From Bacteroidales bacterium (GTDB lineage: Bacteria; Bacteroidota; Bacteroidia; Bacteroidales; Tenuifilaceae), in the NCBI GenBank assembly GCA_008933525.1, contig WBUV01000034.1:1-13908 (forward strand): 13,908 bases of DNA, in the 5' to 3' direction. Below, one piece after another: positions 4,600-7,261 of this stretch (positions are counted from its first letter, which is position 1; the number at the start of each line of letters is the position of its first letter). Position numbers and translations under genes: made by a program. The notes beneath the pieces are model-generated. The model had not been told where the DNA came from, ran no database searches, and saw nothing but the letters and a program-made list of their open reading frames with translations.

Positions 4600-5544
4600 A
4601 TGCACAGCAAACACCAAATAAAGTTCTTCACTGGTCGGAGTTCTCGCTATCTTTCCGAGAAAATTGCTCAGAGTTTCGGAATTCCACTAGGAAAATCGAA
4701 TATTACAGTATTCAGCGATGGTGAATTTCAACCATCCTATGATGAATCGGTGCGTGGTTGCACCGTTTTTATTATACAGTCAACATTTCCTCCTGTAGAC
4801 AATCTTTTTGAGCTTCTTTTGATGGTTGATGCTGCACATAGAGCATCGGCATACAAAGTTGTGGCTGTGATGCCTTACTTTGGATGGGCACGTCAGGATA
4901 GGAAAGATAAGCCACGCGTGGCTATTGGTGCAAAAATGGTTGCCAATATGTTGCGTGCTGCTGGTGTAGATAGAGTAATGACTATGGATTTGCACGCCGA
5001 CCAAATTCAGGGATTTTTCGATGTTCCTGTTGACCATTTGTACGCATCATCAATTTTTGTCCCTTATATCAAAAGTCTTAATTTAGATCCTATTGCCATT
5101 GCTGCTCCCGATATGGGCGGTGCAAAACGTGCAAACGCATATTCTCGTTTTTTGAACTCATCGTTGGTGGTTTGTCATAAAAGTCGCGAAAAAGCAAATC
5201 AAGTAGGCGAGATGACGGTTATTGGAGAGGTTGAGGGCAAACATATTGTTATCCTTGATGATATGGTCGATACCGCTGGTACTCTTACAATGGCTGCCGA
5301 TTTAATGATGGAAAAGGGCGCTGCCTCAGTACGTGCTTTTGCTACACATGGTGTGCTATCTGGTTCAGCTTACGAAAGAATTCGCGATTCAAAAATTACC
5401 GAATTGGTCGTAACTGATACAATTCCTTTAAGAACCGATAAGGATACCTCTAAAATTAAGGTGTTGTCCGTTGCCGACTTGTTTGCTGATGTTATCAATA
5501 AAGTTTATAATTATCAGTCAATCAGCGATAAATTTATTATATAA
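4600..5544 (+). CDS. prs: Ribose-phosphate pyrophosphokinase (PRPP synthetase)
   Basis: This 314-residue cytoplasmic enzyme makes 5-phosphoribosyl 1-diphosphate from ribose 5-phosphate and ATP, feeding purine, pyrimidine, histidine, tryptophan and NAD synthesis. Visible signatures are FSDGEFQPSYDESVRG (38-53), the ATP-site segment RQDRK (98-102), the metal-binding DLHADQIQGFF (130-140), the catalytic flexible loop KSREK with K194 and R196, and the PRPP-binding loop VILDDMVDTAGTL (217-229). The length is that of a class I bacterial Prs. It lies directly before rplY-pth, like the prs-ctc-pth order in Firmicutes. A dedicated rplY promoter begins six bases after its stop codon. Confidence 0.97.
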   Translation: MHSKHQIKFFTGRSSRYLSEKIAQSFGIPLGKSNITVFSDGEFQPSYDESVRGCTVFIIQSTFPPVDNLFELLLMVDAAHRASAYKVVAVMPYFGWARQDRKDKPRVAIGAKMVANMLRAAGVDRVMTMDLHADQIQGFFDVPVDHLYASSIFVPYIKSLNLDPIAIAAPDMGGAKRANAYSRFLNSSLVVCHKSREKANQVGEMTVIGEVEGKHIVILDDMVDTAGTLTMAADLMMEKGAASVRAFATHGVLSGSAYERIRDSKITELVVTDTIPLRTDKDTSKIKVLSVADLFADVINKVYNYQSISDKFII

Positions 5545-5549
5545 TCGTT

Positions 5550-5580
5550 TTTGTTTCTTAAAATCACTTTGCTATCTTTG
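5550..5580 (+). promoter_or_regulatory. Strong Bacteroidota-type promoter for rplY-pth-hslR
   Basis: TTTG (5550-5553), a 19-base spacer and TATCTTTG (5573-5580) match the Bacteroidota promoter consensus in both boxes and at the optimal spacing. Transcription would start near 5587, giving a leader of about 93 bases that contains the structured element described next. It begins immediately after the prs stop codon, so the ribosomal-protein cluster can be expressed independently of prs. Confidence 0.8.
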
Positions 5581-5593
5581 CAACCCAAAATTT

Positions 5594-5653
5594 CCCTCAA
5601 AATGGTACGATGGGGGGCTACAGAAAAATGAGGGGTAGCCCTGAGTAATACCG
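5594..5653 (+). promoter_or_regulatory. Structured rplY leader with a 5S rRNA loop E-like motif (candidate L25 autoregulatory element)
   Basis: The leader folds into one long hairpin. The lower stem pairs UGGUA (5603-5607) with UACCG (5649-5653), counting one U-G pair. The upper stem pairs GGGCUAC (5615-5621) with GUAGCCC (5635-5641). A symmetric 7-by-7 internal loop lies between them: CGAUGGG (5608-5614) opposite UGAGUAA (5642-5648). Aligned with loop E of E. coli 5S rRNA (G72-G76 and G100-A104), five consecutive pairs have identical bases on both strands: GAUGG opposite GAGUA. Loop E is the binding site of ribosomal protein L25, the product of the gene 27 bases downstream. The pairing is visible in the sequence. 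Autogenous regulation is inference. Autogenous control of rplY is known in E. coli, but through different leader features. Confidence 0.7.
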
Positions 5654-5679
5654 GTGTAATAACATAAAATAACAAAACA

Positions 5680-6255
5680 ATGAAAACAATTGAATTAAGT
5701 GCTGCAGTTCGTACAGAAACTGGAAAAACTTTTGCAAAAAACATGCGTAAATCGGCTTTGATTCCTGCAAACATTTATGGTGGCGATCAAAACCTAATGA
5801 TTTCTGTTGATGAGAAAGAGTTAATGAAGGCGATTTACACTCCTCATGTTTACATTGTTAACCTTTCTGTTGAAGGTAAGGTTTACAGCACAATTATTAA
5901 GGAAACTCAGTTTCATCCAGTTTCCGACAAGGTACTTCATATTGATTTTCTTCAAGTATCTGATAAAAAGAAAATAACTATAGCACTTCCTGTGGTTCTT
6001 GAAGGACAAGCTGAAGGTGCTAAGCAAGGTGGAAAACTTGCTCAAGTTGTTCGCAAGTTACGTGTTAACGGATTGGCAAAAGATCTTCCTGAAAGCATCA
6101 ATATTGATATTACTAACTTAGGTTTAGGCAAGAGTATCATGGTTGGTGATTTAGAATTCAAGAAATTTACTATTGCTGAGCCAAAGAGTGTTGTGATCGC
6201 AACTGTAAAAACAACTCGCGCAGCTAAGGATGCCGCTGTTGAGACTAAGAAATAA
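5680..6255 (+). CDS. rplY: 50S ribosomal protein L25 / general stress protein CTC
   Basis: This 191-residue protein is the long (CTC/TL5) form of L25, which binds loop E of 5S rRNA in the central protuberance of the 50S subunit. The N-terminal RNA-binding domain (about 1-93) has the family hallmarks RTETGK (11-16), ALIPANIYGG (26-35) and KETQFHPVSDKVLHIDF (74-90). The C-terminal TL5-type beta domain follows (about 97-178), with a short alanine/lysine-rich tail. The start ATG follows an A-rich, unstructured stretch without a Shine-Dalgarno sequence, as is common in this phylum. A strong promoter and a structured leader with a loop E-like motif precede it, suggesting feedback control. pth follows after 12 bases. 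Confidence 0.96.
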   Translation: MKTIELSAAVRTETGKTFAKNMRKSALIPANIYGGDQNLMISVDEKELMKAIYTPHVYIVNLSVEGKVYSTIIKETQFHPVSDKVLHIDFLQVSDKKKITIALPVVLEGQAEGAKQGGKLAQVVRKLRVNGLAKDLPESINIDITNLGLGKSIMVGDLEFKKFTIAEPKSVVIATVKTTRAAKDAAVETKK

Positions 6256-6267
6256 TTTATTTAAAGT

Positions 6268-6831
6268 TTGAAATATCTAATTGTAGGATTGGGGAATATT
6301 GGTGCTGAGTATTCCAATACCCGTCACAACATAGGATTTAAGGTATTGGACGCACTGGCAAAGGCGTCCAATATTTCTTTTGTAGATTCCCGTTATGGTG
6401 CAGTTGCTGAACTGAAACATAAGGGACGTATCTACGTTTTGCTAAAACCATCAACCTATATGAACCTTAGCGGAAAGGCGGTTAATTACTGGATGCAAAA
6501 GGAAAATATACCACTTGAGAATGTTTTTGTTATTGTTGATGATTTAGCCTTGCCCATAGGGGCAATTCGCATTCGCCAAAGCGGTAGCGATGGTGGTCAT
6601 AATGGGCTGAAGAGTATCAACGAAGTGCTTGGTACGAATGCCTACGCGAGGTTGAGGTTTGGGATTGGAAGTGTATTTTCTAAAGGTCGCCAGGTTGACT
6701 ATGTGCTAGGTGAATGGACCGAAGAGGAGGAGAAAATTCTTCCTGAAAGAATTGTGAAAGCTGGCGAGGCTATAGTCAGTTTTGGTACAATCGGCGTTGA
6801 ACGTACAATGAACTTTTTTAATAGTAAGTAG
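6268..6831 (+). CDS. pth: Peptidyl-tRNA hydrolase
   Basis: This 187-residue cytoplasmic enzyme releases peptides from peptidyl-tRNA that drops off ribosomes. Catalytic and substrate residues match E. coli Pth: N10 (VGLGN), H20 (NTRHN), N66 ([10 protein letters not shown]) and D91 (VDDLALPIG). The GGHNGLKS loop (109-116) is also present. The start codon is TTG. It is chosen because the family begins exactly at [10 protein letters not shown] and no ATG or GTG lies at that point. The gene is 12 bases after rplY and one base before hslR, so the three are almost certainly one transcript. The TTG start may lower its translation relative to rplY. Confidence 0.96.
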
Positions 6832-6832
6832 A

Positions 6833-7261
6833 ATGGCCGAAATTTCTACAAGGATTGATAAGTGGCTTTGGAGCGTGCGGATTTTTAAAACCCGCAGCAT
6901 TGCCATTGAGTTTTGTAGAAAGGGTAGGGTAACAATCAACGGAAATATGGTTAAGCCTGCCCGCGAGGTTCAGGTTGGCGATACCGTTGTGGTGCGTAAA
7001 CCTCCTGTTAATTATACCTTTAAGGTAAAGGGTTTTCCCAAAAGTAGGGTAGGGGCAAAACTTGTTATGGATTACCTTGAGAATTTAACTCCAGCGGATG
7101 AGTTGCAGAAGCTCGACCCTGCATTTATGGCTTTTAACATCTACCGCGAACGCGGTACTGGTCGGCCCACTAAAAAAGACCGCCGCTCATTGGACGAACT
7201 TTTCGAGGATGGATTCGAGGGTTTCGACTGGGACGATGAGGACGAGAAGGCAAAGGACTAA
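6833..7261 (+). CDS. hslR: S4-domain RNA-binding protein, heat shock protein 15 family
   Basis: This 142-residue protein carries an S4 RNA-binding domain at about residues 4-65 (RIDKWLWSVRIFKTRS, then CRKGRVTINGNMVKPA and a VGDTVVVR strand). E. coli Hsp15 binds free 50S subunits that still carry a nascent chain and helps recycle them. This protein is somewhat longer than E. coli Hsp15, with a basic segment (GRPTKKDRRS) followed by a very acidic tail (FEGFDWDDEDEKAKD). It starts one base after pth stops, which fits a shared role in rescuing stalled translation products. Its stop codon overlaps the stop of the convergent gene on the other strand. Confidence 0.88.
   Translation: MAEISTRIDKWLWSVRIFKTRSIAIEFCRKGRVTINGNMVKPAREVQVGDTVVVRKPPVNYTFKVKGFPKSRVGAKLVMDYLENLTPADELQKLDPAFMAFNIYRERGTGRPTKKDRRSLDELFEDGFEGFDWDDEDEKAKD

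Follow-up and report, generated by a model that had tools for sequence, protein, structure and literature searches.

A hairpin preceding rplY in Bacteroidales resembles loop E of 5S rRNA and is probably an autoregulatory leader for ribosomal protein L25

Autoregulatory leaders of ribosomal-protein genes commonly, but not obligatorily, resemble the rRNA site of the protein, and the rRNA-mimicking ones are generally known as copies of 16S or 23S rRNA. A copy of 5S rRNA is known from plants, where a 5S-binding ribosomal protein recognizes the P5SM element in the TFIIIA pre-mRNA. The rplY gene of E. coli and other gammaproteobacteria, encoding L25, is said to have an autogenous operator, reportedly described by Aseev in 2015.

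Section 3.8 of a 2024 review (PMC10931766) states that E. coli L25 represses its own mRNA, and the portions of this review dealing with the protein add that bL25 binds 5S rRNA and that the E. coli operator features occur only with short bL25. In the portions of a 2020 paper on leaders (PMC7247131) considered here, an L25 leader is named only in Enterobacteria.

In the window (the whole stretch of 13,908 nt analyzed here, from a Bacteroidales genome), a hairpin of 51 nt is situated between prs (4600-5544) and rplY. Its internal loop is symmetric (7-by-7) and places GAUGG opposite GAGUA; we liken this loop to loop E, which we take to be the known L25 site on 5S rRNA. The hairpin is very probably an autoregulatory leader that rebuilds loop E and, when bound by free L25, blocks translation initiation. 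The features of the locus are as follows.

5603-5607, plus strand: 5' strand of the lower stem, pairing with 5649-5653 and covarying
5609-5613, plus strand: GAUGG, equal to positions 72-76 of 5S rRNA loop E (sequence, comparison with relatives)
5614-5621, plus strand: 5' strand of the upper stem, with G-U as the first pair, pairing with 5635-5642 and covarying
5635-5642, plus strand: 3' strand of the upper stem (sequence)
5643-5647, plus strand: GAGUA, equal to positions 100-104 of 5S rRNA loop E (sequence, comparison with relatives)
5649-5653, plus strand: 3' strand of the lower stem (sequence)
5680-6255, plus strand: rplY, two-domain bL25 of 191 aa (TIGR00731, 138.4 bits with the cut-off 73.1; PF01386 and PF14693)
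6268-6831, plus strand: pth (TIGR00447, above its cut-off)
6833-7261, plus strand: Hsp15-like gene, hslR (NF007673, 51.8 bits, below the cut-off of 148)

The first-pass annotation had described this hairpin, and its coordinates for the stems, GAUGG/GAGUA and the 7-by-7 loop all proved exact when the letters were read again. The outermost pair of the lower stem is U-G, C5608 is opposite A5648, and a G5614-U5642 pair is formed atop the loop, followed by the remaining upper stem (5615-5621/5635-5641). The ATG of rplY at 5680 is 26 nt past the hairpin end.

As in the E. coli rplY operator, in so far as the cited review presents it, a structured 5' leader of rplY would be read by L25 with translational repression as the outcome, which has been demonstrated in E. 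coli and is proposed here. According to the same source, the E. coli gene encodes a short one-domain bL25 and has a weak GAGA Shine-Dalgarno element, whereas the protein from the window has two domains. The E. coli leader folds as a near-regular hairpin without GAUGG/GAGUA, and our model of the leader, R1, has no match in a 4-kb E. coli rplY region. Identity with the E. coli-type operator is thus rejected on account of the two-domain bL25, the lack of a model match and the other fold. With the fusobacterial S4 leader, as given in the relevant portion of PMC7247131, the rplY leader shares an mRNA copy of the protein's rRNA site beside the protein's own gene. Here, too, a conserved structured RNA is located directly upstream of the gene and resembles the rRNA site of its product. 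Leaders of this kind, however, are generally known as copies of 16S or 23S rRNA, while the rplY leader copies 5S rRNA; to our knowledge, it would, if our reading is true, be the first bacterial leader to do so. P5SM is likewise a 5S rRNA-copying mRNA element, but it is eukaryotic, controls splicing, and differs in the protein and in the part of 5S rRNA involved.

The isolated hairpin of the window has a predicted folding energy of -19.2 kcal/mol (z -3.71, with one of 200 shuffles equally low), and z for isolated hairpins of seven relatives ranges from -1.0 to -5.6, being above -2 in three of these eight. Since the folding energy of the 141-nt context is unremarkable (z -0.05 vs shuffles), comparison with relatives is needed to decide. 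Among 60 relatives rplY was found in 56, and 50 upstream regions were extracted, one of them too short to read. The motif is present in 41 of the 49 readable regions (40 by pattern, L042 by the model) and missing from eight; with stems that covary and a loop that does not change, this shows that the likeness to loop E is not due to chance, which the first-pass annotation had already considered a poor explanation. Alignment A1 comprises 38 of the 41 leaders (L008, L010 and L042 were left out). In A1, 89.3% of the structure cells are paired (72.2% in shuffles), 97 cells have double changes (36.8 in shuffles), and the covariation score is 0.621 (0.313 in shuffles), each value being reached by none of 500 shuffles; when, as a control, partners are slid by 1-3 columns, pairing is at most 48.9%. 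The number of pairs changed on both sides (11 vs 9.9) is not unusual, as 123 of the 500 shuffles reach 11. Of the two outer lower-stem pairs, the first fails to form in 18 of the 38 leaders and the second in 15, so that a lower stem of three pairs is general and one of five pairs is characteristic of the window's family. Neither AUG (73-75) nor AGUA (101-104) changes in any of the 38.

At least 80 named rplY loci from species genomes were ranked by likeness to leader-bearing proteins, and this set is therefore biased towards leader-bearing lineages. R1 matches just upstream of rplY in 77 of the 80 loci listed, the others being L201, L260 and L271; the bearers among the loci listed include Bacteroides caecigallinarum, Phocaeicola abscessus, Prevotella, Hoylesella, Xylanibacter, Dysgonomonas and Balneicella halophila. 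In an alignment of 74 of these listed leaders, not independent of A1 because the model used to fit it had been trained on A1, 80.9% of cells are paired (71.7% in shuffles) and 67 have double changes (19.9 in shuffles), with 0 of 500 shuffles as high, while the two outer lower-stem pairs are unpaired in 51 and 65 leaders. Among the loci listed, positions 73-76 and 101-104 are invariant in all 77 leaders, with G (73 leaders) or A (four) at position 72 and G (71), A (four) or U (two) at position 100. The comparison of homologous leaders that the first-pass annotation had proposed as a test thus came out in its favor, as the loop bases are kept and both stems covary in the two alignments.

Loop E itself was read from the 5S rRNAs of the relatives, of which 33 out of 60 have an RF00001 match. 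A pattern demanding ATGGTA and GAGAGTA was applied to 30 loci, yielding GAUGGUA in 25 and AAUGGUA in two, opposite GAGAGUA, and missing three. The sole 5S rRNA found in the window's assembly, the one the earlier comparison called for, has GAUGGUA/GAGAGUA in loop E, and so have those of two congeners; its contig, C185, may be foreign to the window's genome. Around and beyond loop E this 5S rRNA (L001, 1501-1611) differs from those of the congeners (L288, L296).

On the leader side, 115 of 127 upstream regions could be parsed with a pattern demanding ATG and GTA; nine of the twelve unparsed ones are leaderless or too short, and L027, L247 and L254 bear the leader by model or pattern. Like loop E of bacterial 5S rRNA (helix IV/V), the leader has the letters 72-76/100-104 in register between two helices. 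At position 72 it has G in 101 cases and A in 14, and the G/A choice here is common to the leaders and the relatives' 5S rRNA. The site 5608/5648 is occupied by U-A (72 leaders), U-G (20), C-G (14) and C-A (9), so that C-A in the window, earlier noted as a departure from loop E, is one of four pyrimidine-purine combinations. Positions 77/99, U-A in 5S rRNA, are G-U in 63 leaders, C-A in 29, U-A in 16, A-U in four and G-C in three. The departure from U77-A99 thus depends on the lineage, with A99 in 45 of the 115 leaders and U77 along with it in 16. A78-G98 occurs in none of the 115 parsed leaders, and the window has G-U at 77-99 and G-C at 78-98, thus copying neither pair of loop E. These counts imply mimicry of ten bases generally and of twelve in some Prevotella-type leaders. 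Unlike loop E, then, the leader mostly has helix pairs in place of 77-99 and 78-98, and it is located in an mRNA. At one locus near a contig end (L095, G495:C71), what looks like the 3' terminal part of a 5S rRNA gene, together with a terminator-like repeat, directly precedes rplY.

In 198 genomes of the order, R1 (E up to 0.1) yielded 96 hits in 95 genomes, and 184 of the same 198 have an rplY match. Directly upstream of rplY are 94 of the 96 hits (78 by listed places, 10 in fetched stretches and 6 more; one of them, G597, runs over the contig end). The other two are G569, at a contig end, and G044:C3 (E 0.05), a weak second hit in a stretch that reads as coding. The window's genome has no further R1 hit better than E 2. 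Of 150 rplY places listed in the order, 70 are in genomes without an R1 hit; when these were rescanned with filters off, 10 upstream regions matched R1 at 20 bits or more, and 60 did not match at 20 bits. The leader is therefore found in at least 104 of the 184 rplY-bearing genomes sampled from the order, with about 19 rplY genomes left out of this count. Among the R1-negative regions, L092, L113, L099 and L145 look like leader variants by eye; variants whose loop letters differ or whose upper stems are long, weak in or missed by the model, are seen in L260, L099, L145; L113, L092; and L271.

In a sample of the phylum, scanned with strict filters and few candidates scored, 5 of 395 genomes matched, all from the same order. 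In a class sample, with rplY in 77 of 80 genomes, 29 loci were read; two of them, from the same order, scored about 37 bits, and the 27 from other orders had no leader, with R1 never scoring above 10.6 bits. As many genomes of the order and these 27 loci have rplY without the leader, the leader is not needed for L25 as such. In a quick tree of 88 chosen L25 proteins, made without bootstrap and with branch support that is moderate (SH-aLRT 76), a single change accounts for the 39 leader-bearing rows, vs 28.9 changes in shuffles; the simplest reading of this history would be one gain of the leader, or one loss elsewhere. By eye, rplY in most of the leaderless genomes of the order and of the 27 other-order loci is close behind prs and has no promoter box of its own. 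The leader and an own rplY promoter seem linked in occurrence.

The upstream part of the leader adds the following features in the window.

5550-5580, plus strand: Bacteroidota-type promoter, with TTTG at 5550-5553, a spacing of 19 nt and TATCTTTG at 5573-5580 (sequence)
5594-5599, plus strand: CCCUCA, 5' half of an extra helix, pairing with 5629-5634
5629-5634, plus strand: UGAGGG, located in the hairpin loop and forming the 3' half of the extra helix by pairing with 5594-5599

A box of the TAnnTTTG type, presumably the promoter motif of the phylum like TTTG, precedes the hairpin in 112 of the 115 parsed leaders by a lax pattern. The scan of the window with TANNTTTG gave 28 matches vs 16.6 expected, which makes a box by itself weak evidence.

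The extra helix, which joins the 5' end of the leader to the hairpin loop, is probably a pseudoknot in the window's family. By reading, the CCCUC/GAGGG form is present in 21 of the 24 leaders of this family; it is missing from L025 and L026, and L006 has a possible AACUC/GAGUU counterpart. Further pairs change jointly (UCCCUC/GAGGGA, CCCCUC/GAGGGG). Runs of five or more pairs occur in 22 of the 24, vs a mean of 8.6 and a maximum of 15 with shuffled segments. Such five-pair runs also occur in 34 of the 91 leaders outside the family, and L032 and L033 there have strong 5'-loop pairings of their own. In 40 hand-chosen representatives, the 5' segment pairs with its own loop better than with permuted partners (0 of 5000 as good), and weakly so in the 29 representatives outside the window's family (152 of 5000), with no excess in the set of Bacteroidaceae/Prevotella leaders (2795 of 5000) or in that of the Dysgonomonas type (618 of 5000). 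A pseudoknot general to all leaders is thus unsupported outside the window's family by this test. In 63 of the 91 leaders outside the family, GCUUU follows the -7 box ahead of the lower stem.

The bL25 of the window has the 5S-binding domain and shares 32% identity with E. coli L25 across 90 residues. R11, K16, R23, Y33, H87 and D89 are common to both proteins and wholly or nearly kept in 14 relatives; we take residues of this type to be the contacts with 5S rRNA. The pth and hslR genes are possibly co-transcribed with rplY, and any effect on L25 expression could extend to them.

In the proposed mechanism, the hairpin would rebuild the L25-binding part of loop E (72-76/100-104) between its two helices, and L25 present in excess of free 5S rRNA would bind it. 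Bound L25 would stabilize structure near the start codon and keep the 30S subunit off, so that rplY translation would drop until new 5S rRNA absorbs the spare protein. Across leaders, 2-32 nt separate the lower stem from the rplY ATG. According to the relevant portion of PMC9976891, initiation in Bacteroidia favors low structure and a lack of further AUGs around the start codon, in place of Shine-Dalgarno pairing. A protein-stabilized hairpin in this region should hinder initiation.

Many leaders of the window's family have 26-32 nt between the hairpin end and the ATG, which is a looser fit to direct blocking and would suit L25 binding the leader but acting on transcription elongation or mRNA decay. 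This is unlikely, as the lower stem of Prevotella-type leaders ends 2-4 nt before the ATG, and a transcription terminator, also considered, was rejected because no terminator-like site was found at 5400-5800 of the window. It is quite improbable that another RNA-binding protein, either a different 5S-binding one or a general one, reads the hairpin, given that loop E is the L25 site and that nearly all R1 hits precede the L25 gene. A stable hairpin this near the transcript's 5' end would be expected to protect the mRNA as well, but an element for stabilization or processing without a protein ligand leaves unexplained the invariant loop bases equal to loop E next to freely changing stems, and we consider it very improbable.

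The conserved AUG could in principle start a short regulatory reading frame, since ATG at 5610 of the window is in frame through to the TAA of GAGTAA. Over the 115 leaders, however, its frame relative to rplY is spread over all three frames (45/39/31), and the stop is before the helix end in 94; with neither frame nor stop conserved, an upstream reading frame is ruled out for practical purposes. Practically no weight can be given either to an ordinary hairpin resembling loop E by chance, which would suit the ordinary energy of the 141-nt leader, as conservation, covariation and gene association are all against it.

Initiation control by L25 bound to the loop E copy remains our preferred reading. 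A wider picture is put forward with more doubt than confidence: the 5S rRNA mimic would control rplY, and perhaps pth and hslR, across much of Bacteroidales, with L25 shared between the mRNA and 5S rRNA, so that rplY translation gauges free L25 against free 5S rRNA; a pseudoknot of the first transcribed bases with the hairpin loop would have to form or open for the switch in some families; and the leader would have arisen once, for two-domain bL25 and separately from the E. coli operator. If our reading is true, L25 autoregulation would reach beyond gammaproteobacteria with short bL25 to a two-domain bL25 lineage including Bacteroides and Prevotella, the same feedback would have been invented twice with different RNAs, and the leader would offer a small testable model for one protein reading loop E in two settings.

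The leader would also fill a missing Rfam family. At gathering score, Rfam 15 has no match in the window or in the loci of 11 relatives; in 17 further relatives' loci (E<=1) there are three sub-threshold matches to unrelated families, and a further E-value search gave two matches, also to unrelated families and far below the cut-offs. The literature searched, mostly titles and beginnings of abstracts with little subscription literature, contained no L25 leader from Bacteroidota, and an earlier sighting is possible. Short DNA matches in six phage records fall past the hairpin, covering query positions 96-139. In L265, L272, L173 and L176, a second GTGTG copy of a part of the lower stem (e.g. 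CATCGTGTGAT) is found upstream of the motif, and it might be an alternative partner of the lower stem.
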